In this document: positions 647-56,178 of the stretch, piece by piece
How positions within the stretch are numbered: position 1 is the stretch's first letter
How the letters are laid out: each line of letters opens with the position of its first letter
Assembly (NCBI GenBank): GCA_015039465.1
Contig: MU130224.1
Span: 70,210-134,209, forward strand
DNA length: 64,000 bases
From: Phlegmacium glaucopus
Lineage: Eukaryota; Basidiomycota; Agaricomycetes; Agaricales; Cortinariaceae
Direction: 5' to 3'
Translations under genes and position numbers: made by a program
Notes under the pieces: model-generated
Seen by the model: only the letters and a program-made list of their open reading frames with translations
Told to the model about the DNA's origin: nothing
Databases searched by the model: none

Positions 647-3546
647 CTGCTTGGAAAGATTACCAGGCATCTCATCAAAGACATCAAAGATCTTTTTTAG
701 TGTCATGATGGATATAAGCAAAAGATCCTCCTAAATAAAATTATTGTACTCACCTTGCGACAGCGGAGGCTAACCATGTAAGTTGATACCTTCTTGGATA
801 TTGATGGGTTCCCTTCTACACGCACTTCACCATCTGATGAGGACATATTTGCTTCCATGGCTGGGATCCAATGCCAAGGACATGCCCGAATACATGGGTC
901 ATGCCTGCATGCATTTTCTGAGCATGGGTGTAGGAGCTGCAGGGGGTGGTGGGTGGTTTTCCATTGAGGCTGATCGTGTCACAGCTGTGAAAGGGATGAG
1001 GTTAAACTTTGAGTACAAGAAAGAAGAACTTACGAGTCCATAATCCAAGCAGTCATCATTTCATCCAAAGAGGGCAGTGGCGTGCATGAAAGGAACTGTT
1101 CCTGTTTGGTGATAGCGGTGGCTGGAGATGACAGGGAAGCTTATATGCTAAAAAGTTCCTGTCAGCTACCTTGCACATACCAGAAGAATATGTAAAGACT
1201 TACCTAGAAATGGTGCTACGCAATTTACACACCGTAAACTAGCATAGTGGGAGGCATGGGGCAGTCGCTTCGGGGCACCAGTACCAAAGGAGGGACAGGT
1301 AGTGGCGGTGGTGGAATTGCCAAGAAAGAAAGGCCAAGTTGCCACACATGTTTACGAGATGAGACGTAAGGGCATGGGATGGGTCTGGTCTGTGAGTGCA
1401 GCTTTGGAGCACCAGTATTGAAGGAGGGGTGGTGGGGGTGGGTTGAGAAAGAAAGGGTGAGGTGCCACTTGCGTTTATGAGACAAGACGTAAGGGTCTGG
1501 GATGTGGGCTGGTCTGTGAGAATGGTTGATGATCTTGGACAACTGTTGCTGATAAAGGAGGACCGTCCCTTATCACAGAAAAGACTGTTTATTATCAGTA
1601 AAAAAACAGTCAGGTCGTGAAAGAAATCACCTTGCGACTGTCAGTTTGCAACCTCACTCTGGCTTCGCAGTTTGATGGCATACCCTGTATCCAAAGGCAT
1701 GGGACCGTCCTCAGTCCAGATCTGCATGCGGATGGGTTACATGCTTACCTGGCTCATTTAATAATGAATTTGTTCGCACCGCAACCTGTGGTGTGTAGAT
1801 GTAAAACTCGCCCGAATACGAGATAATTGATCCCTGTCAAAAAAGAACAATAAATTGAGAGAGATTAAGCAAGAGCCTTCATCAACTGAATAAAATAAGA
1901 AACAGACCAATTTTCCAGCCACTATCTTTGTTCCTTCCCCTTCCTCTCAGTCTTTGTCTATCTCTCCCCAAGTTCAAATGTTGAACAACCTATGCCTGTG
2001 CTGTTCGGCTGTGGTGTCCTACCTCAGGTCATCCATGATCCAATCAATCAGGGCAAGTGGGACTCACCAGGGTGTTACTTGTGCATCGGCACAAGCTCTT
2101 CCACTACTAAAGAAGGAAGCCAAGCAATATCGAGGCTGGCGCCGCTGCCTGGGTGAGTTTGTTCAATTCAGCTTTTCGTCTAGTTGAAATCCGCGAGGGG
2201 CTGGGCATGCGAGGGGCTGGGAATGCTGAACAGATTGCGTGCCAGCACCCATGTTTCCGATAATGCAGTGTTTGATACTAGTGGCGGGTTGGCGTTGTTC
2301 GGATCCGAGTCCTGGGTGGCTCGTATAGGTAGGTGCTGGCTCGTGGGTTGCTTGCAGGGTCCTGCAGGCGGTTCAGATGGGAAGGGTGCAGGGCGTCGAC
2401 GGACCCCCGAGTTGGGCCCGCGAAGAGAGCGAGGGAGAGCAGGTGGCATCCCGGCTGGCTCACTTTGTGCTCGTCACATGCTCAGCCCCCCCTTTTTGGG
2501 ACTGCGGTTCGCAGCTTGACTTCATCTAAGTCAGTTATGGAGGGACTGGTAAATGCCATGCAAGGCAATGGCCCTCAGGTTATGTATTTTTGGAAGTGCT
2601 ATATGGCGCTGATAGATAGGATTTCTCAGTCAATGCACCAAACAAGATCGCATTGGACATGGCTCCTAATCATGTCAAATATCAGCCCTGGTTGCTCTCA
2701 TCACAGATGCCAGCAAGATTGTAGAGCAAATCAGCAAGCTCCGTCGTCCCCTCCCTCGACGATACTGAATCTCACCCTCTGGACAATGAGATATACGAAA
2801 AAAATCTAGGTAACCGTGATCCAGATAAAAAGCGCTTGCCTTCAACTTTGAACCACCGTCGCGCGACCTAGCCATACATTGGTCAACGTGAGCATTTGTG
2901 TCAATATTCATCACCATCACCCATTTTTCTAAATATATTCTCAGCGATTCATGTAATGCCAATTATTATATTGTTGAAAAGAGCTGTTTGAACGTCGGCG
3001 CTTACATACAAGGTTCTTTGATATTCTTCAAGAAAAGCCAGCTAGGGTGCATATCTCAGAAATCGGTCAGAAGTCTGGTATCTAATAAGCGCGGAAGGCT
3101 GGAAGAGTTCTCCGAATATTAGCTTCGATGCACATCTTCAGAGAGGGAGTGAATCCGAACGAATTAGTTGATCTCTCAAAAAAATTGAATCTTTACCAAT
3201 TGAAAAATGAAGTCTCGGAGAACGTTTTTGCCAACAACAGATTGAGCATGCAACTTCTCAGCGGTAACGCTTTATCTAGCCTCGGGCTCCATTTATCTGT
3301 GTTATTACTCCTTTAATATCTGATTGTTGTTACAATTGTGTTCAGTATGCTTTACTTGGTAGAACTCGCCTCCAGACTCCTGGAATAGTCTCTGGCCGTT
3401 TATTTCGAGCCTGCCAAGGCAGTCCAATGTTTTTACAAAGGAAGAACGTCCTTATTAGCAGTATGGGGAAGCGGCGAATGCTGATAGGCGTAAAAGTTGT
3501 TGCAAGTCAACACAATGCGTCGTAATTTGTATAACTTTGGAAGCAC
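647..3546. other. Stretch without a recognisable gene
   Basis: About 2.9 kb between the MITE and the URB1 stop codon. Open frames here are short (up to 158 codons), lie in competing frames on both strands and match no family I recognise. Apart from the tandem duplication at 1273-1520 I see only unstructured sequence. It may hold degraded transposon sequence or an unrecognised small host gene. Confidence 0.5.
1273..1520. repeat. Imperfect tandem duplication, two units of about 125 bp
   Basis: Two successive units (about 1273-1399 and 1405-1520) share the order GGGGCACCAGTA / GGAGCACCAGTA, a G-rich stretch, AAGAAAG, a TTGCCAC or GTGCCAC block, GAGACGTAAGGG or AAGACGTAAGGG, and GGTCTGGTCTGTGAG or GGCTGGTCTGTGAG. 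The divergence indicates an old duplication. A minus-strand open frame across it looks like a by-product of the repeat and was not called as a gene. Confidence 0.6.
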
Positions 3547-6500
3547 CTAGAAAGTATTTCGAAATGCTACGATTCTCAAAACCTCTGTTCGTGCCCATTC
3601 TCCAACCTGACTTCCTTCTCCATCTACAATCGTTCTCCAGACTAATAATTTTGGAGTCAACAAGTCCCACGCAGGACATTTCTGCTCTTGAGTCATTGCA
3701 GAGCGCCAAAGCATTTCCACCATCGATCCCCAAAGAAGCAGAGGATCTTTGATCAAGGATGGTTGATGAAGTCCGGAAGAACGGTGTAGTGAGGCGAGGG
3801 AGCTAGTTGGTAGCGTCGGAGAGACCTTTGAGCTAATGTCGACCTTCTTTTCGAACTTGTCCAAGCAATGCAAGGCATGATCGAGAAGAGTTGACAAGTT
3901 ATCGAGCGGAGATCCTGGCAATAACGAAAGCCGTAGGATGACAGGGGCGGCGTATGTCAGGTTCTCCAGAGCAGTAGCTGACAAAAAAAGGTTAATCCTT
4001 GATCATTTATCAATCCACGAACGAAGAACGTACGACAACTTTTTTCGTCTACCAAGTACTCAATGCATCTACCAATCGCGGAACGCCATTCACCATTCGT
4101 AGACGCTTCAATCTTATTCGAGTCTACTACGATAAGAATGTTTTCAAGGATTTTAATCCACGCAATACTCCCAAGGGTAGAATGTAGTATTTGAATCTCG
4201 ATCCAGGAGAGAAGTGCGAATTTGAGGACGAGAGAATTCGTTGCTTGAGCATTGCAAGTCAGGTTTGCAAGAACCTTGATGGTAAAGGGTAAGTTTAGAT
4301 AAGAGGAGGCGGTAAAAAAATCGCAATGAGGACCAACCTCCAAGATGCTCTGTCGAAGGATGATATCACTTTCTGAGCTCTGGTACAGACTTGCCAACAA
4401 CTCCCATGTATGCCTGCGTTTCAGCACTCGCCAGTCTTCCGTGCTCATCATCCCATCAGATAGAAATCGAATGATCCATCCACGTTCCTTCCTCCAATCA
4501 TCGGAGCTACTGTAAAGCATTCCATAGAGCATGGGCACATCCGTCGTGTCGAGCTCTGGACGTTGGAGAAGAAAACGAGCAGTAAGAGGATATATAAAGT
4601 TGGAAGGATAAAAAATGCCCCTCAAAGCGTGCATTAGGATGAGAGTGGTGTACGATGGGAGTCGATTAGGAGGTTCATTAGAATGGGTTCGGATAGTGTC
4701 TTTCAACATGTTAAGAATATATAACACGTGAGGCTTCTCCTGGAAGTCGGCGTGCTAGAAAGATATGAATTAGGTGTCTCGGAAACGCGTGAAGAACATT
4801 TTGCTTACCTCCATCTGTTTCCATAACGCAACAACCTGACACAAGGCGAGCTCACGCATCTGGCCATCTTTTGATGATAAGACTCGGATGAACAAGGAAA
4901 CAACATTGGACCTAAAAAGTTCTAGCCACGCAAACGCTGAGGATGGAGGCTGGTCTGCGAGCATCTGGCCGAAAAGGAGCATGACAAACACAGGGTCATA
5001 TAGATGTGCATCTTGGGTGTTGTTTGTCAACAAAGCGGATTGGTCCTCAACACACCGCCATCGTGGGAGGTTCAAACACGTCCGGAGCACCAGTATTGGG
5101 TCCAGGGATTGAAGGGCCTCCAACGCACTTTGAGAGGATGCATTAGACGTGGATGACCAACGGCTGAGAAGGGATGTAATCGATAACTTTCGTTGGTTCT
5201 CAAAAAGCTGTAAAATGGACAAAATGCGGAGGTCTGATAGCGACAATGTGCCGCGATAAGTAGGAACAATGGGTTCAATATGTGTGATTTGACATGTGTT
5301 CGTCGGATGTAGATGAAATAAGGAGTGTAGAAGTTCAATGATAGCATCCCGGATTGATGATACTTCGGGAGAGACGTTGGTGCAAAGTTTGTAGAAATGT
5401 GGGTGCTGGATGATATTTTGCAAATGACGATTGACAATGAGAGGCTAGATAATAATAGATCAATAAACACAAAACGTTGTATTTTACACAGAGAAATACA
5501 TACTTTGAGTTGAGTACTCGAAAGACAAATGACTGCAAGTTTGAGCGCTGAAACATTGCTGAATCGGCCTTGAATAATAACTGTCAAAAGTGTTTCCACC
5601 AAATGCGGTTTTGAAACAGAGGATAGTTTAATCAAGGAACCTGGCACCGGTTCAATACCCAACATGACGGAACACACGGAATATAATTGATTACATACCT
5701 AACTCATCCGCCAATTGCTTATCTACCATTGTTTCGTGATCCCCAACGAGTTGGTATTGATCAATCAGCCATTGCATTCCGCGGTCTACCAAGATAGATA
5801 TTACGCAGCTCACAGCTTTACCGAGTCTAGAAGCGAGGGCGACGCCTAGTGAAACGATTTCGAGCGAAACCGTTTTTTCTGTCATGGCGTTGACTTCTTC
5901 CGTAAAGACAGCCAGGAGGGCGGAGAGATCTCCGCCAGCGTTTGAGAGGATATTGATAATACACGATCGGCCGAGCTTTCGTAACACAACAGAAATGTTT
6001 TGATCTGCTAATACGCTGACGATTGGGGAGATATAAGGAAGCCACACGCTACTCTTTATGGATGAGGTCACTTGGGAGAGTGAAGAGTCGAGGACAGCAT
6101 GGAAAATGGGCAGTAAATGGTAGATCTGTCGTCGCGAACAGCTCTCCGTGCCTAGCCATTCAACAACACTTTCGCACTGACGATAGACCAACGCAGAGAT
6201 GATGCGGACAGTAGAATCAGACCACTTGTCTTGATTGAGAAATTGACGTATATCAAGTTCAGCTGCCAGAGTGTGGGTTCGATGAGACCAACGAGTATTT
6301 GCACGGTTGATGACTGTCACAAAATCAACCTCATTGGAGGTAGTAGTAAACAAAGGAGATCCATCCAAACCGATCGGTAATGAAGCTTCAATTGCAATGG
6401 CAATCAAATCTTCGAGGAGCAAAAAGTCCGGTAATACGGATCGTAAAGACAAAAGCTGAGGTAGTCGCTGTTTAAGAGTCAATTCAGATTCACTACGCGA

Positions 6501-13944: not shown

Positions 13945-16900
13945 ATGAAGCCTTTTTTCAAGAAACTTACCAAGTTCAAGAAACCAAACAGTCCATCTCT
14001 GTCCATCACCGACTCTGCTCTTGGTTCAAGCCCTGAACCAGGAATTGCGAGATCGGAAATCATGACAAGCGCCGGTTATCCCATGCCATCCGTCCCCGTC
14101 AGCGCTGCGACTGAAAGCAATCAAATCATTCAAGCCGCTGGCGTTACTGTGAGTGTTCAACTTGGCCCATCACGTCAACAATAGTAGCATAATTACTCAT
14201 CGTCGTCAATCAGTCCCATGAGCGCCGACTCTCGGCGTCTATTTCCCTCTCGTCGACCGATGATGTTCCTGTAGTCTATGGGGATCAAAACTATAACAAC
14301 TCGCCTCCGCGTGACGCCATAATGCAAACCAACTTAGGATCCACGGGATCCACGGAATCAGGACGAAATCCTTCGGTGAGTTGCTCACGCCCTGGGTTTT
14401 CAGCTTTTGTTAATGATCAGCGGACTCAGCAGTCTGGCTTGGGTCACTTTCCGAATGCCAAGAATGTATTCATCACTAACAGTACCTTTGTGAGTCTTTC
14501 TCGTAGGCTATATAAATGATTTAGCAATAACTGTAGGTAGGTTAACTACATCCCTGCTAAGACTGGCGAAGGGCAGACAGAGATCCCTATACCTCAGAAG
14601 CCAAACTCCAGTCCATTGTTTACTGGACGGAAAGATGTACTCGACAAACTTGGCAATATTTTCGTTAAGAGCAGACAGTCAAGGCCCTCTTGTCTCCTTT
14701 GGGGAATGGGAGGGATTGGAAAGACTCAAATTGCTCTCAAGTTTATAGAAGAAATGTCTGACATGTAAGTGTTTTCACACTACCATTCACAATACTGAAT
14801 TCATGTCTTGATCTAGGTTTTCACTTGTCTTCTGGGTTGATGCTTCCTCTCACGAGAGTATTACAATGTCTCTCATGGGCATAGCCAGCCTTCCTGCTGC
14901 ACAAGATTCTGGTGTGGATGGCTCAGTTGAGTCTGTCCTCCAGTGGATATCTGGTATTCATGAGGAATGGTTGATGGTGTTTGATAATGCTGATGATCCT
15001 CTTCCTGAGAAGGTGGCCAAGTTCTTTCCCCCAGGTACCAGAGGTAATCTTCTCATTACTAGCAGAAACAGATCCATGGGAAGGATCATATCATTTGAGA
15101 ATAACATTGAGATCACTGAAATGGAGGAAGCAGAGGCTATAGCTCTACTTCTCAGAGCCAGCTATTTGGATCCAGCTGAGCATATGGAAGCAGCTAGAAA
15201 TATTGTCACTGAGCTTGGCTGCATTCCTCTGGCAGTTAATCATGCTGGTGCTTATATTGAAGCTGGTAAATGTGATATCAATAGATATCTGAGACAACTC
15301 TCTTTACATCATAAGACTCTCATGTCAGATGCTTCATTCAGAGGAGCATCAAATTATGACAGAACAGTCTATGGGGCTTGGGATTTATCTTTTAAAGAAA
15401 TAGAAAAGAGAGCTGGTGGACAATCCACTGCAGGAAATGCACACGAAGCCCAGGCTGCAATTCTAATTCTTCAAATATGTGCTTTTTACCATCATAGTAA
15501 TATTGCTACAGAAATATTCCAATTTGCTGCTGAGTCCACTCAGTCCAGAGAACATAGTATTCATTGTGATGTACCTAAAAAGCTACCCCAGGCAAGCACT
15601 TCACTGGATCATACTCTGCTTAGCTTGGACAATGATGGTCACTGGGATGAACTCATCTTTAGACAAGGAATTAGTGTACTTCTCTCCTTCTCCTTGATAA
15701 AACGAGGACTATCATCAGAGTCATTCTCTATTCATCCTCTAGTGCACTGCTGGAGTCGTGAACAAATGTCACAATCTGAGCAGCAAAGAATGTGTCAGAT
15801 GGGAAGCACAATCTTGTCCTGTGCAATTCCTTGGGAATCTGTGGGCCAGGGTTATGCATTCCGACAGATGATTTTTCCCCATATCAAGGCAAATGAGATG
15901 CATGGAAGCCAGATTGGACTTATAAAACAGCACTATGATGATAAATACAACAAATTTTCATTAGTAATGAAAGAGAATGGAGACTGGAAGAATTCAGAGC
16001 AGCTAGAGCTTCAAGTTGTGGACATGAGGAAGAAGCTGCTTGGTGCAGAACATCCATCCACCCTAGCAAGTATGGCAAATCTAGCAAGTGCATACCATAA
16101 TCAGGGAAGATTGCATGAATCAGAGCAGCTGCAGGTTCAAGTTGTGGACATGCGAAGGAAGTTGTTTGGTGCAGAACATCCATCCACCCTCAGAAGCATG
16201 GGAAATTTAGCAAGCACATATCGTAGTCAGGGAAGATGGAATGAAGCACACCAGCTGGGGGTTCAGGTCATGGACATGATGAAGAAGCTGCTTGGTGCAG
16301 AACATCCAGACACCCTCACAAGCATGGCAAATCTAGCAAGTATGTACCGTGATCAGGGAAGATTGAATGAGGCAGAGCACCTGGGGGTTCAAGTCATGGA
16401 CATGAGCAAGAAATTGCTTGGTGCAGAAAATCCAGACACCCTTATAAGCATGGCAAATTTAGCATGCACATACCATCATCAGGAAAGATGGCATGAGGCA
16501 GAGAAGCTGGAGGTTCAAGTCATGGACATGGAGAAGAAGCTGCTTGGTGAAACACATCCATCCACCCTCATGAGCATGGGGAATCTAGCAAGCACATACC
16601 GTTATCAGGGAAGATTGAATGAGGCAGAGCAGCTGGAGATTCAAGTCATGGACATGATGATGAAATTGCATGGTTCAGAACATCCAGTCACCCTCACAAT
16701 CATGGGAAATCTAGCTGGCACATATGACAACCAGGGAAGATTGAATGAGGCAGAGAAGCTGGGGGTTCAAGTCATTGACATGAGAAAGAAAATCCTTGGT
16801 GCAGAACATCCACACACCCTCATAAGCATGGAAAACCTAGCAGGAATATACCATAAACAGGGAAGATTGAATGAGGCAGAACAGCTGGGGGTTCAAGTCA

Positions 16901-17448
16901 TGGATATGAGAAAGAAAATCCTTGGTGCAGAACATCCACACACCCTCATGAGCATGGCAAACCTAGCAGGAATATACCATGAACAGGGAAGATTGAATGA
17001 GGTAGAGCAGCTGGGGGTTCAAGTCATGGACATGAGAAAGAAAATCCTTGGTGCAGAACATCCACACACCCTCATGAGCATGGAAAACCTAGCAGGATTA
17101 TACCATAAACAGGGAAGATTGGATGAGGCAGAACAGCTGGGGGTTCAAGTCATTGACATGAGAAAGAAAATCCTTGGTGCAGAACATCCACACACCCTCA
17201 TAAGCATGGAAAACCTAGCAGGAATATACCATAAACAGGGAAGATTGAATGAGGCAGAGCAGCTGGGGGTTCAAGTCATGGACATGAGAAAGAAAATCCT
17301 TGGTGCAGAACACCCAAACACCCTCATAAGCATGGCACATCTAGCAGACACATACTTTTATCAGGGAAGACAGAATGAGGCAGAGCAGTTGAAGCTTGAA
17401 GTTATGAATATAAGGAAGAAAATAGAAAACACTGAAGTGATGTTATAA
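13945..17448 (+). CDS. NB-ARC/TPR protein (fungal NLR-like)
   Basis: A fungal NOD-like protein, a STAND NTPase class linked to non-self recognition. My model has four exons: 13945-14148, 14214-14489, 14541-14764 and 14817-17448; lengths and phases join cleanly. The N-terminus is of unknown type and ends in NAKNVFITNSTFVNY, a segment often found just before the nucleotide-binding domain in basidiomycete NLR-like proteins. The P-loop is GMGGIGKT, Walker B is WLMVFDNADD, the sensor region is NLLITSRNR, and the GLPL-like motif is IPLAVNHAG. A winged-helix-like region (IHPLVHCWSRE) follows. The C-terminus has 11 complete 42-residue TPR units of the kinesin-light-chain type plus a partial one. No disabling change was seen. 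The ligand is unknown. Confidence 0.85.
15997..17448 (+). repeat. 126-bp tandem coding repeat: 11 TPR units plus a partial unit
   Basis: Every unit is exactly 126 bp (42 codons), starting at 15997, 16123, 16249 and so on, with the last full unit at 17257-17382. The unit consensus reads EQLGVQVMDMRKKILGAEHP then TL.SM.NLAG.Y..QGRLNEA. Units 1-6 have diverged, but units 7-11 are nearly identical in DNA as well as protein, and units 7 and 10 are almost the same. That gradient indicates recent duplication or gene conversion at the C-terminal end. Confidence 0.92.
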
Positions 17449-41759: not shown

Positions 41760-42224
41760 GTGATGTCATGTCTATGTTATGATATCATGCCTTGTTTTTG
41801 TGTGGTGTGGTGGGCAATGCCTGTTATGGATTTGGCAGTGTTATGTCACATCACATTGCCAAATGCGTGACAAAGTGTGAAACACTTGAAACATAGCTTA
41901 CTCACTCAGTTCTGCATCATTTTGGATAATTTTTTGGTATCGTAAATGTATTACTGCATCATGTGAACATATATTGAATGAATTTTTATGATAGAAATGG
42001 TGATTGTGTTGTTTTTTGAGGTGGCTATGCTTTCTTTGTCTGGTGGACTAAAACTTCTAAGCAATATAACACTTCAATTATTGATTTCTGCAACATATTT
42101 TGGTGATGTGAAATTCTCTACCATGTATTGTAAATATTTCTCAGCAGTTATTTTATTTTATTGTACACACAGGACCCTACAAATGAGCGATTTATACCCA
42201 AGTCCCTGCCAAAATGCCATTTTT

Positions 42225-43230
42225 GAAACTTCCAGCCAATAGAACACTTCAGAAATGGGTTTATGTAACTTGTCTTGGTGATGTGAAATGATCTAATATA
42301 TATTTTAAATATTTCTCAGCAGTTATTTTGTTTTATTTCACACCCAGACCCTTATAAATGATCAGTTTCCACCCAAATTCCTGCTAAAATGCAGTGTTGG
42401 CAACTTCTGTCCTATAGAACACTTCTAAAACTGGTTTATGTAACTCATATTACTGACATAAAATACTATACTATGTATTATGAACATCTCTCAGGAGTTA
42501 GAATTTTTTATTTCACACTCAAGCCCTTAAAAATGAGTAAGCTAGTGGCAATTCCAAGCCAAATTTGAAACTTCCAACCTATAGAATTGTTCATAAACTA
42601 AACTTTTGTAGCTATTCCTGTGCCAAAAATTGTCTATGGTGTGTTAAAAATATTCCTCAGAAGTTTTATTATCTTATTTCACACTTAGAACCCTACAATT
42701 AAGCAAACCCCACCCAAATCCCTGCTAAATTTCAATTTTTAAGACTTCCAGCCTATAGAACTCTTCAGAAACTGGGTTCTGCAGTCTATCATAGTGACAA
42801 AATATACTCTACTATATATCCTCAACATTTCTTAGGAGTTATATTTTTTTATTCTGCTTTCAACCCCTCACAACTGAGTGATCTTCAGCCAATTTCATCC
42901 AAAGTGTGATGTTTGAGACTTCCAACCTATAGAACACTTCATAAACTAGTTTCTGTAACTCATCTTGGTGATAATAAATGCTCTACAATGTATCCTAAAC
43001 ATTTCTCAGGAGTCTAATCTTCTGATTTTATATGTTGAGCTTAATAAAACAAGTGATATCAAGCCAATATCAGCCAAATTGATGGCTGAAGTTTATAAGG
43101 AATAGAACTCTTCAACAACTCATTTATTGGATTTGTTTTGGTGGTATAATATGTTCTAATCTTTGTTTTTAACATTTTGTTGGGAGTGGAATTTTTAATT
43201 TCATGCTCTAAGTATGAGATACTGGGTGGT
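42225..43230. repeat. ~174-bp degenerate tandem repeat, six units
   Basis: The landmark TCCAGCCTATAGAACACTTC (variants) recurs at about 42229, 42404, 42571, 42746, 42922 and 43092, spaced 167-176 bp. A second landmark, TTTCTCAGCAGTTATT-type followed by TATTTCACAC, recurs with the same period. Units have diverged from each other. No coding frame follows the period. Confidence 0.75.
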
Positions 43231-50514: not shown

Positions 50515-50639
50515 GTTACCCATAGGGTTACCAAAGTTCAGTTCAGTTCAGTTCAGTTCAAGAACCAGTTCGAACCACTGAACTGTATGTAAATTGACAA
50601 ATGTCAATTTTATTGAGTATATAGTCAATAAGTACCCAA

Positions 50640-53600
50640 CTATTTAATTTCTATGATCTCTACAGCCTCATGAGAAGCAGCATCATCAGAAACATTTAAG
50701 AATTTAGTTCTGTAAGCATCTCTGAGGATCTGAACCCTCCCAAAGGCTGTAGGATCTATACATGTATGCTGTAGAGTGCCAACTAAACCTGCCGCAGAGA
50801 AGGTTCTCTCAGAAGCAACTGATGACCCCTGTATAGCAAGGTAGTCACGGGCAATGCGAGACACGGTAGGGTATTGTCTTGAGTGATACTGTGAAACTTG
50901 AATTAGAGAAAGAAGATGTAAAATAATAACAACATACCCCCCACCACTTCACTGGGTTCAACCCATCCCCAGGCTCAAGAGGACTGTTGATATAGTCCAG
51001 AAGCTCCTTCCTAGGATTCTGACCTACATCATTTTCCAAAGCAGACCTTTTGAGGGATGAAAGTATCCAGTTGGAGCCATATCCATTGAAGGAACTATTG
51101 GCACCTTTATAAAGGACTTAGATCAATACATAAGTAATAAAGATTAATGCTAACCTTGGCCCTTGACTTCTGATGTTGAGGTTGATGTTTTTGGCTTCTT
51201 AGGTGGTTTATAATATGTGTCAAACTTGTTAAAATTCAGTGTTGATATGTTCATTGATGAGGAGTACACATACAACATGTTCAAGAGCAGAATATCCAGC
51301 ATCATAATATGATTTATCCCATTTATCCATACAATATTCAAGCTTGATTGAAGGATCCAAGGCTGGAAAATAAATGAGGAATAAAACCTATTTTATGGAA
51401 GAAAAAAACTCACCAAGACAGATGAAGTAGGTATCACTTTCATCAATAGTCTTATACCATTTCCATAACTTCTCCAAGCCACATTTAAGAGCATCAGCAA
51501 CAGGCAAAAATTTTGGTGTATCATACATAATTTCCCAACATGTTTGAAGTAACTCCAGAATTGGAATTGTCTTCCATGCAACTGACTGAGTTTCTGAAGA
51601 GAAAGAGGCTTGGGCTCCACGTGGCTCCTAATTATGGATCAGAATATAAGTATTAAGATATTGAAGAAACTCACCGCAAGAACCTCCATAATAAGGCTCA
51701 GCAATTTCCACTCATCTTCTTTGAGTTGATAGTCTGAGTATTGTTTGTTCCTCAGTTTTGGAAGAATTTCATCTGCAAACAGGCAAAAATTTTTGACAGC
51801 CTGATAATGAGGTCATTAATAAGATTAATCAAAAGAAAGCATTAAAATACCTTTTTGCACAAAACAAACTGCTCAATTAAGTCATACATTGATCCCCAAC
51901 GGGTCCGTACCCACTTGACAAGCTCTAGTGGGGGTAAACCTTCATCTCGAGAGACCTTGGCAAAGTATGCCTTGGCCTGAGGTGAAGCACAAATCTAGCT
52001 TGGTAATTATCATCTGAAAATAAAATATAAAAGTAAAAATACCTGATTTACAAGGGCAAGAACCTTTCCAAGAACGTCACCCGCAGTGAAATCAACTACA
52101 TCATCAATTTCCTCCTCATTAGGGACATTCACTAATTCAGACCAGTCAGCAAGCCAGTCCTCCCCATCATCACCATACATATCCTCCTCATCCTCATCCT
52201 CTATGGAAACTGTACCATTTTTGGTCAATTTTTTATTCTTTGGAGCACAAGGACCAACAGCCTCAATAAACACTTTTGCTGAAAGGTAGACAGTGTGCTC
52301 CATGCACCTAAAAAACCATTCATTAGATACTATATTATTAAAATAATCATTGTCTTTATACCTGACTCGATGATCTTGAGCGACCCAATCCTTCTTGAAA
52401 GGAACAGAAACACTGCGCTGAAGAGCATGGAGAGCCTTATCATTTGCAGTAGCATTATCGGCAGTTGCCCACCCAAGCTAAACATAAAATTTTGTTAATT
52501 ATATCAAAATATAAGTCAAAAAAAAAACATACTTTGCTCCGAATATCATATTGATCAAGAACCTCAAGAATCTTAGCAGCTATATTAGCACCACTGTGAC
52601 TACCTTTCAGTTCCTCAAAACCAATCAGTCGGCTCTCTAACTCCCAGTCAACGGGCTGGCTAGGAGGGGCATCGATGTAGTGAGCAGTGATCGCAAGATA
52701 AGGGTCGTATGCTTTTGAAGTCCATGCGTCGAAGGTAATTGAGATTTGACTAGTAATGGTCTACAAACAAGATGAATACAAGCAAATTATTTTGAAAAAA
52801 AAAGAAAATCTACCGCAAAATGCTCAGTAAGGTGGACAATAGCTTCGTTAGCCTTCTCAATGACTTCCTCTTGAAGTTTTTGATGGTGGGGTATATCACT
52901 TTCCTTTGTAGCAGGACATTGGTAGACCAGAAGCTTTCGGAAAGAATCTTCATCAACCACTCAAAACGACTAGAATTTTTTTATCAGGCGCATGTCATTG
53001 CATATAAGAAATAAAAGACTTTACCTGATCACTTTGAACAATAAAATTTACAATGTGCTCAAGGACACCTTCTTTAGACCACTTTGTCTTCAAGAATTGA
53101 TCAAGGCTAGGCTGCGTCAATCCCTGGGCATCTGTGTTGGCTTCAGCATTCGACGGAAGTGCAGCAGGGTTAGGTTGTATTTTGAGCGCCTTGCATTTTG
53201 TGAGGTATATCTCTCCATGCGTTTTCCAATTACTGAGAGCAGAAATAAGTAAATGATAAAAAATACAGTGATGATGAACATACCGTGCGATGTGTTTTCG
53301 CAAGGAACTGGTTCCCCCACTCATATATGCATTGATATTTTTTTTACCTTGATCTCTATGCCGAAATTAAGACTATGAATATTAAATAATAGCAGACACT
53401 TACTTGCAGACATTGCATATATGTCCCTTCATGTTTTCACCATCTTCTTCCACTGTGGCTTTCATGTACATTGCTTGAATATCTCAGGTACATTCGTCAA
53501 GGCCTCGATGGTTGTGTTTACGAGGTGGCTACATGATTTCCGGTGAGATTACTGTATGCAAACAAAAAATTTTGACTTACTTTGTGTTCAAGCTGTATTT

Positions 53601-54662
53601 CAGCCTGAAGACACTCATATTGCTTAACCGGATCCTCCTCCTCCTCATCATCTCCGCTTTCATCCCCACCATTGCCATCACCCTCCTCTCCAGTGTCAAG
53701 AGATCAGTTGGGACCTAGTCCCTGGTAATCATCATCATAATCATCGTCATTGTCACTCGCAATCGCCAGCCCATCTAGATAGTGTCATGATTAGCTTTAT
53801 ATAAATAGTACATATTTTATTGCACCTTTTTTTGATTTCTGACCACTATATATGTGACGTAGGGGCTCGCTTATCATCGCCGGCCCATCTAGGTGACATT
53901 GTGGTTAGTTTTATGTAAATAATGTATCTATCGCACCTTTTTTTGATTTTTTGTTATTGTGTACACGACGTAGGGGCTCACTTGTTGTCACCAGCCCATC
54001 TAGGTAATGTTTATGATTAGTTTTATATAAATACTGAATTTTATCGCACCTGTTTTTGATTTTTCACTATCGTGTCCACGATGTAGGGGCTTGCTTGCCA
54101 TTGCCAGCCCATCTAGGTAATGTTTATGATTAGTTTTGTATAAACACTGAATTTTATCATACCTTTTTTCGATTTTTTGCCACCTTTTAGGGTGGTTGGC
54201 CCATCTAAGTGATGTTCTAATCAGTTTTCTGTGAATGTTGACCATTAAACATACCTTTTTTTGATTTTTCACCATTTTTGGTATCTTTCTGACCTACTAA
54301 ACAACATAATCAATGAAATGAAAAAGAGAGTGATATATTTACTCACAGACGAAGTTGGTGGAAAAAAACCGGCATGTTTTCAGAGATAAATGACCCTGCT
54401 TTGCTTGCTGGGCCCGAGTTGATGCTTGTTTAATCCTTTTCCCACCCACTCGACATGCTGGTTCTTTTCCTTTGAGTCCGGACACAGTTGGCAGGGTGTG
54501 GGAGTCACGGTCATCATCTGTCGAGTTAGCTCGTTGGTGCTTTTTGGACAGTTGGGGGTCGATAGTAGCTACTTGGGCGCTCGGAAAGTGGAGCCATTCC
54601 ATTTCGGATGCTTCCTTGAGTGTGCCATCAGCGTTGCGAGCGGGAGCTTCTGGATCAGACAT
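50640..54662 (-). CDS. hAT transposase with BED-type zinc finger
   Basis: The start at 54662 (MSDPEAPARNADG) is preceded by an in-frame ATG at 54722. Exon 1 is 54347-54662. Five micro-exons and an acidic exon (53581-53774) follow, then a BED-like zinc finger (GHICNVCK ... SLRKHIAR). The RNase-H-like core contains SITFDAWTSKAYDPYLAITA, LGWATADNATANDKALHAL and DHRVRCMEHTVYLSAK, then VRTRWGSMYDLIEQF and WDKSYYDAG. The C-terminal dimerisation domain is RIARDYLAIQGSSVASERTF. Exons are joined by consensus introns of about 50 bp. The one disabling feature I see is an in-frame TGA near 53703 in the acidic exon; splicing between that exon and the zinc finger was not resolved. Otherwise the gene looks nearly intact. 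Confidence 0.78.
53826..54296 (-). repeat. Tandem micro-exon/intron array in the hAT transposase gene
   Basis: In gene order the exons are 54255-54296 (42 nt), 54163-54204 (42), 54050-54112 (63), 53937-53999 (63) and 53826-53888 (63). Introns around them are 50, 50, 50, 50, 48 and 51 nt. From the second on, each exon begins AT GGG C and ends AAA (or ACA) G, so each junction codes for Asp then Gly. All are phase 1-1. Encoded units look like DGPTTLKGGKKSKK or DGLVTTSEPLRRV ... KKSKK. The following exon (53774 down) starts the same way (ATGGGCTGGCGATTGC) but then turns acidic. Confidence 0.85.
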
Positions 54663-54950
54663 TAAATAAATGTTACGTGGTTGTGTTGATTTTTTTGCGA
54701 AGGTTTGGAGCTGCAGCATCAACCGAGAATTTCAATTTCCGCTACCTTTCCAGTCTTTTAAGTAGTCAATTAAACCAATTTTTCTGACTATAGTTCAGTT
54801 TGAACCATCAAAAGATGAAGTTTTTCTTTTATGGATTTGTTTATCACATTATGACAATTATAACTACTAGTAGCCTAATGAAATAAATTAATTAAGGAGC
54901 AAATGACGCTCTCACTGTCGAAGCCCCACCAGATGGTTGGTCATGGTTGG

Positions 54951-55125
54951 TCGTCTAAACAGGTGGGGGTTGGGTCCAAACAGGCATTCGTCGTTGGTCG
55001 TCTAAATGGGTCCAAACGGGCATTCGTCATTAGTCGTCTAAACGGGTCCAAACGGGTGTTCATCGTTGGTTGTCTAAACGGGTCCAAACAGGTGTTCACC
55101 GTTGGTCATCTAAATGGGCAGGGGT
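54951..55125. repeat. ~36-bp minisatellite in the hAT element's non-coding part
   Basis: Units carrying GGTCGTCTAAACGGGTCCAA and a following CATTCGTC or GTTCATCGTTG block recur about five times with a ~36-bp step. The surrounding DNA to about 55880 is G/T-rich and contains GC stem-loops at 55205-55223 and about 55543-55560. Confidence 0.7.
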
Positions 55126-56178
55126 TGGGTCCAAACAGGCGTTGTCATTGCCGTCATCGCCATTTGTTCTTCATCTGTTGTTTAGAAACTAAACTAGAAA
55201 ATAACTCCCCCAGTGAGGGGGAGATACCACCTTTGGTTACTGTTTGTTCGTCGTCGTCGTCAATTGTTCGTTTGGCGTTCACTCGTTTGTTAGTTTGGCA
55301 TCATTCATTTGTCATTGTCATTTGTTTGTCATCGCTATTTGTTTGTTGTTGTAATTTGTTCATCCTGTAATGGTTTCCATTAGAATTAAATTTGAATTTA
55401 AAGAGATACCTCCTACGAGGTTGTTGTGGGTCACTAAGGGGGGTTCTTAGACGTTGTGAACGGTCTTGGATGGTAATTAATAGTCATAGTAGGTAGCGAG
55501 GGTGGTGAGGGGTGTTGTATGTTGATAGAGAATAAGGAAGGACCCCCTGTTGAGGGGGGGGTTGCTACAGCAACCAGCGTCTAAAACAGGGGCAGGGCGT
55601 CTAACAGGGGTCGTGGCGAGGTGAAGGTGCAAGGTGCAAGGTGCAAGTGGTAGTGGTAATGGTCCTTATTGTTGTCATTCGAGGTGGTGATGGGTCGATG
55701 TCGTCGGTAGTGGACCTGGTGGCCGCGGTGACATGGTGGCCTGATATGACGGCCGTCATGGTTGTCGTGCTTGGCATTGTGGTCCTTGTGTGTTGCCTGG
55801 TGTTGCTGGTGTCATTGGCATTGTGTTTGTTAGCTAGTGGTGGTGGGAATGGGGTTGCGAATGGTTCCGAACATAGTAAGCAATGAAAATATTCAAACTC
55901 CGACTCCCAAAATGTCGGGTCCAGCGCCTAATGACAATACTTTATGGTTTTTAGGGTCAATTCTGCACGAAAAAATTAGAGAAAATTATTGGCAGAAAGT
56001 TCAGTTCAAACCGGTTTGAACCCAGTTCTTAAAAAAAAGATTTGTGCCAAACCGAGAACTGAACAGACAGGTTGAAACCAGAACTGGACTGAACTGAACC
56101 CGAACCGTCGGTTCGGTTCAGTCAGTTTGCGGTTCTTGAATCAGTTCTGGACCGAACTTCGGTAACCCTAGTTACCCA

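Follow-up and report, generated by a model that had tools for sequence, protein, structure and literature searches.

A micro-exon array in the linker of a decayed fungal hAT transposase, probably grown by tandem exon-intron duplication

Tandem duplication of a segment together with its intron belongs to the known kinds of mutation, and both tandem exon duplication and internal gene duplication with an intron have reportedly been described. The locus analyzed here has in common with tandem exon duplication that copies of an exon plus its intron stand within one gene, the frame being kept by symmetric phase. Its host is a transposon of the hAT superfamily, with whose members (Hermes, Ac, Tam3) it shares terminal inverted repeats (TIRs), an 8-bp target-site duplication (TSD) and a C-terminal dimerization domain, but from which it differs by its 21 exons and by a micro-exon array in the N-terminal linker. 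We know of no hAT element with such an array.

The hAT element and its micro-exon array

The element is located on the minus strand of the 64,000-nt stretch of DNA that was analyzed (the window). It is a complete hAT transposon of 5648 bp (50523-56170), delimited by TIRs (TAGGGTTACC.../...GGTAACCCTA) and identical 8-bp flanks. The short TIR TAGGGTTACC is present at both element ends, as is typical for hAT elements, and the TSD, TGGGTAAC in gene orientation, is found at 56171-56178 and on the other side at 50515-50522. An exact 8-bp TSD flanks all five copies of the window family, which share 95-100% DNA identity. The transposase model of the window copy is made up of 21 exons and, with the final stop, counts 998 codons. 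Since three in-frame TGAs interrupt it (53704-53706 in the acidic exon, 53484-53486 and 52961-52963), this copy is decayed and its gene is not intact.

The C-terminal part of the protein carries a Dimer_Tnp_hAT domain (E 4.7e-14, 52.4 bits versus a cut-off of 21.4), encoded together with the presumed catalytic part by exons 10-21 (50640-53232, minus strand, including the TGA at 52961-52963). Among solved structures, Hermes was the sole molecule matched (four sequences; 6dww, E 2.5e-7), the alignment being confined to 58 residues close to the C-terminus. The translation further contains FDAWTS, ADNATAND and SERTFSAAG, which are candidates for the hAT catalytic D, D and E motifs. The identification as a hAT transposase, made earlier by a model from the letters alone (the sequence-only reading), is thus borne out by domain, TIRs, TSD and Hermes match. 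That reading also placed a BED finger after the units. What stands of it is a zinc-finger match, zf-C17orf113, below threshold (16.8 bits, cut-off 29.5) in the N-terminus of a second copy, on contig C130; a domain search of the window protein returned no zinc finger at E 0.1. The corresponding region of the window copy consists of exons 8-9 with intron 8 (53284-53528, minus strand) and holds the TGA at 53484-53486. Upstream of the gene but inside the element, a tandem repeat (36 nt x 4.1, 54971-55118) may represent subterminal repeats.

When the window copy (50640-54662) is compared with L030, both being full copies, exons 1-10 diverge by about 9.5% and exons 11-21 by about 2.6%, as if the two halves of the transposase had different histories. 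The same comparison counts 170 transitions and 46 transversions, a CpG change being possible for 106 of 171 transitions; this is decay of the methylation or RIP kind.

Re-derivation of the boundaries on the minus strand agreed with the sequence-only reading: exon 1 is separated from the acidic exon by five micro-exons of 42, 42, 63, 63 and 63 nt, and the introns measure, in gene order, 50, 50, 50, 50, 48 and 51 nt. Every junction up to the one that opens the acidic exon is in phase 1 and all micro-exon lengths are multiples of three, so the units are frame-neutral, as had been claimed. Exon 1 (54347-54662, 316 nt) is open and ends in phase 1; it is followed by intron 1 (54297-54346, 50 nt), which lies outside the repeat and in which CTRAY was not found. 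Micro-exon 1 (54255-54296, 42 nt, LGQKDTKNGEKSKK) and micro-exon 2 (54163-54204, 42 nt, DGPTTLKGGKKSKK) are separated by unit intron 2 (54205-54254, 50 nt, CTRAY at -20). Unit intron 3 (54113-54162, 50 nt, CTRAY at -21) leads to micro-exon 3 (54050-54112, 63 nt, DGLAMASKPLHRGHDSEKSKT), and unit intron 4 (54000-54049, 50 nt, CTRAY at -21) to micro-exon 4 (53937-53999, 63 nt, DGLVTTSEPLRRVHNNKKSKK). After unit intron 5 (53889-53936, 48 nt, CTRAY at -20), micro-exon 5 (53826-53888, 63 nt, DGPAMISEPLRHIYSGQKSKK) and unit intron 6 (53775-53825, 51 nt, CTRAY at -20), the acidic exon (53581-53774, 194 nt, in-frame TGA at 53704-53706) begins with ATGGGCTGG, the start of the units. Because of this common boundary, which the sequence-only reading had also noticed, the repeat extends into the acidic exon.

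Tandem Repeats Finder (TRF) independently reports an array at 53762-54177 with period 113 and score 471. In a self-comparison of the 64-kb window (period 60-250), intron-like signals on the coding strand number four in this array, one in the array at 54972-55118 and zero in the other arrays listed. CTRAY stands 20-21 nt before the 3' end in 5/5 unit introns of the window copy and 19-21 nt before it in 4/5 of the C130 copy. Introns this short and CTRAY sites are in keeping with a basidiomycete. Micro-exon 1 has weak homology with unit 5: among 2000 shuffles, 121 scored as high.

Copies of the family and related subfamilies

A search of the 60.5-Mb assembly with the array DNA, of a type that warns that repeats may be missed, gave two matches, the array itself and C130. 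In the C130 copy all five units recur in register, 88% identical, so the window array is not a product of chance, and together with the TRF array this upholds the tandem exon-intron duplication put forward earlier. The exon lengths in C130 are 316-42-42-63-63-63-212, with the frame open from exon 1 through the end of the acidic exon. A genome check for other copies of the family, which the sequence-only reading had suggested, found unit number to be equal, five in both the window and C130. In a tree of the ten units, units 1, 2 and 5 pair by position (support 100/100, 84/84 and 96/97) and units 3 and 4 are not separated. This grouping by position across copies suggests that the array had probably reached five units before the window and C130 copies split. 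The window intron after unit 3 differs at 1/50 positions from the C130 intron after unit 2 versus 5/45 from its own counterpart, a sign of exchange between units.

Beyond the window and C130, exact TSDs flank three copies, in C180, C164 and C78 near 470 kb. The C164 and the second C78 copies have internal deletions and no array. The C180 copy spans 5682 bp including a run of N, and the letters are N where the array could be; in L039, which holds this third copy, the place of the array is unreadable (3194-4799 in gene orientation). L040 (3685-5831, 2147 bp) and L041 (3440-5967, 2528 bp), likewise in gene orientation, are internally deleted derivatives with exact TSDs and were likely moved by a transposase supplied from elsewhere.

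With a zinc-finger exon as a query, 15 loci were retrieved from this genome at an E value no higher than 1. A protein tree of all 15, based on the stretch from the zinc finger to exon 12, yielded clades A (window, C130), B (C143, C53, C193, C21, C198), C (C237, C23, C208) and D (C128, C241, C97, C206, C182). Support is strong for A, B, C and the whole of D, but not for the split within D. Tandem exon-intron duplications with dissimilar units of about 110-128 nt occupy the same linker in B, C and D, being clear in B and D and weaker in C.

In clade B the unit measures 128 nt (79%, E 3e-27 in self-BLAST) and the micro-exons 45 and 69 nt. Clades A and B are sisters and both duplicated next to the acidic exon; they may go back to one shared first duplication that was later homogenized. 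Clade C has micro-exons of 54 and 42 nt and the weakest self-BLAST repeat (32 nt, 75%, E 0.36). The end of exon 1, the intron and the start of the next exon are nevertheless echoed 110 nt further on, with 0/2000 shuffles as good, and the peptide KFFEKNFI/VDSPTPSGSS recurs as HFFKKHFI/VGSPNASGSK (11/18 residues, aligned by eye). A further weak repeat (50 nt, 76%, 111 nt apart) lies inside the acidic exon of this subfamily (L034, 2776-2936), and duplication that involves no intron may thus lengthen the acidic exon as well.

Clade D combines one and two units in close relatives. D2 (C128, C241) has a unit of 113-114 nt (71-74%, self-BLAST E 1e-13 and 4e-19), the micro-exons of C128 measuring 51 and 66 nt. 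D1 (C97, C206, C182) has one exon of 60 nt in place of two. The D query is matched by C97, C206 and C182 only from shortly before the second micro-exon onward. Between the two units, the start of the intron resembles the downstream intron and its end resembles intron 1; it looks like a hybrid, as would arise from tandem duplication with intronic breakpoints. Unit one has lost 9 nt and unit two has gained 6 nt, changes that are both absent from the D1 exon, for which reason the gain of a unit in D2 appears likelier than a loss in D1. Frame is kept with two units in C128 and with one in C97 and C206, which by extension agrees with the earlier claim that units can come and go without a frame shift.

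As to further copies, the B query was matched over its full 656 bases by C193, C53 and C143 and over 58-656 by C21, and the C query over nearly its full length by C237, C23, C16 and C208. Both clade C micro-exons are present in C16 and C138, the two matches fetched; the remaining B and C matches cover part of the query. Frame is lost in a micro-exon or the acidic exon in C53, C23, C241 and C182, and exon 1 holds a stop codon in C143 and C53.

Splicing, constraint and competing readings

In five lineages, which have 5, 2, 2, 2 and 1 micro-exons, the spliced model keeps an open frame from exon 1 through the whole acidic exon. Outside the window family, the exon lengths of the open models are 325-45-69-296 (C193), 295-54-42-329 (C237), 448-51-66-290 (C128) and 445-60-263 (C97 and C206). 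Retention creates an in-frame stop for 22 of 23 introns in six loci, among them each of the six window introns. In five non-overlapping pairs out of nine, the introns have 11 indels in 866 aligned bases, none a multiple of three, and the micro-exons 2 in 658 bases, both of which break the frame of their copy. Micro-exon lengths are multiples of three in 12/12 cases across the five open lineages, which is no independent test because the boundaries were partly chosen to keep the frame. We thus infer, rather than observe, splicing of the micro-exons from open frames, retention stops and indels, and the sequence-only reading, which had proposed it, gains indirect support from this pattern.

Constraint was assessed by codon position. 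The 63-nt units differ from each other at positions 1/2/3 by 15/20/14 in the window and 14/14/12 in C130, and the micro-exons of the two copies differ by 12/9/12, versus 5/5/13 in exon 1 and 20/22/36 in exons 8-21. In this family the micro-exons evolve about as fast as their own introns, without third-position bias, and the lysine tails differ at 11/90 sites versus 22/183 in the rest of the micro-exon. Pooled rates over five pairs are 0.090 for micro-exons, 0.073 for introns and 0.072 for exon 1, with 0.110 for the acidic exon (four pairs). The pooled third-position share, 25/59 in micro-exons versus 119/244 in flanks (p 0.39), does not separate the groups, and third positions hold 6/8 micro-exon differences between C128 and C241; the lack of constraint is therefore seen in the window family only. 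The codon tests exclude C208 (no end found by pattern), C21 and C198 (whose 5' part, inspected by eye, is not intact), and the acidic exon and third intron of C237/C23.

The sequence-only reading had proposed that the lysine clusters tune nuclear import or DNA contact. A selected domain of this kind, its strength set by unit number, would account for the basic cluster that ends each window unit ahead of the zinc finger, yet we regard it as unlikely: the tails are no better conserved than the remainder, codon positions are flat, the other subfamilies have different sequences, and KKSKK is not shared by them, one clade C micro-exon ending in HAKKS. On tail conservation and codon positions the lysine cluster was rejected as the main role, and the same two observations favour a nearly sequence-free spacer over a tuned import or DNA-contact domain. 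We give equally little credit to an alternative-splicing cassette, in which skipping of frame-neutral units would supply transposases of varied linker length. Phase 1-1 micro-exons could be skipped in frame in any subset, but the unit introns have similar signals and so give no pointer to regulated skipping.

It is quite improbable that the array is a minisatellite within one long intron rather than exonic. To TRF it is an ordinary tandem repeat of 113 nt, and joining exon 1 directly to the acidic exon would keep the frame too; against this stand the spliced frames open in five lineages and the concentration of indels in the intron parts. A coding minisatellite was rejected on the 113-nt unit and the stop met on retention of each of the six window introns. 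Introner elements were rejected too, with only two matches to the array DNA in the assembly, in the search that may miss repeats. hAT transposases bind repeats near element ends, and the array might on that ground serve the DNA of the element as transposase-binding repeats, its exonic reading being incidental. This we hold to be very improbable, as some 1.8-2.4 kb separate the array from the nearer end and the 36-nt repeat is closer to it, the units are dissimilar in other subfamilies, and exact TSDs flank internally deleted copies that lack the array.

Proposed linker growth and comparison with known systems

We propose as the probable explanation that the window holds a decayed, intron-rich fungal hAT element whose linker has grown by tandem exon-intron duplication, with the units acting mainly as a nearly sequence-free spacer; the weak repeat of clade C takes slightly from our confidence in it. 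The N-terminal linker would grow by tandem duplication of short segments, each worth one intron and one exon. As the linker introns are in phase 1, the frame survives the addition of any unit whose exonic length is divisible by three. For the window family, it is probable that the duplicated segment brought the start of the acidic exon together with the end of the first micro-exon, which would give fusion micro-exons, and this duplication would have been repeated up to five units; sister subfamilies would have undergone like duplications from other breakpoints. The units would form a flexible spacer between an N-terminal FF..NF motif and the zinc finger, in a linker that may tolerate many in-frame peptides. 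The independence of the subfamily duplications, the spacer role and the breakpoints of the window array are what we infer from these comparisons. Related elements of this genome have lengthened the same linker in a similar manner from other sequence, which suggests a recurrent route to a longer spacer.

Between exon 1 and the zinc-finger exon there are about 162 codons in C130, 156 in the window, 137-141 in B, 142 in C, 136 in D2 and 108 in D1. The longest array and the shortest acidic exon occur in the same family, which would fit a spacer where length outweighs sequence, although this is suggestive only. A more tentative and rather doubtful extension is an evolvable linker in the hAT transposases of this fungal lineage, a site bounded by phase-1 introns where unit duplication is repeatedly tolerated or favoured. 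The number of units would then fix linker length, and skipping of units might vary it within one element.

Ten loci with a mapped zinc-finger exon (L030-L037, L043, L044) and the window have no tandem repeat of this size in the stretch that runs from the zinc finger to where hAT homology ends. Duplications in the linker and none in the structured part fit tolerance in the former. The background for duplication frequency is the 64-kb window plus the gene bodies of the mapped loci. Upstream of the hAT copy in L037 (486-715 in gene orientation, C208:62000-69500 reversed), apparently within another gene, we observed an exon-intron-like duplication of 142 nt, 77% identical. This mutation is thus not confined to the hAT family, which argues for a general tolerance and not for a special transposon device. 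Elsewhere in the window, 15995-17423 contains 11.3 copies of a 126-nt unit (42 codons) without intron signals, perhaps a repeat protein of the TPR type, and tandem repeats of 175 and 134 nt, also without intron signals, lie at 42051-43013 and 1267-1520.

One genome thus offers several likely parallel cases of exons and introns born by tandem duplication, and close relatives with one versus two units make the birth of an intron and a micro-exon directly testable. The array equally makes testable how sequence-free a protein spacer can be. For gene prediction it is a warning, as transposon exons of only 42-69 nt, flanked by introns of some 50-60 nt, are easily missed.

Introner elements are near-identical introns dispersed over many genes. 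They share with the array the occurrence of several similar short introns, whereas the window array is not dispersed, both of its matches at the sensitivity of the assembly search lying within this hAT element. Dscam-type arrays of mutually exclusive exons likewise consist of tandemly duplicated exons of equal phase, but the frame here does not force an exclusive choice. To our knowledge, parallel recurrence of exon-intron duplication in one transposase linker has not been met before. In contrast to the known cases of tandem exon duplication, the process here recurs in sister transposase subfamilies, in the same linker but with other sequence and breakpoints, and reaches up to five units.
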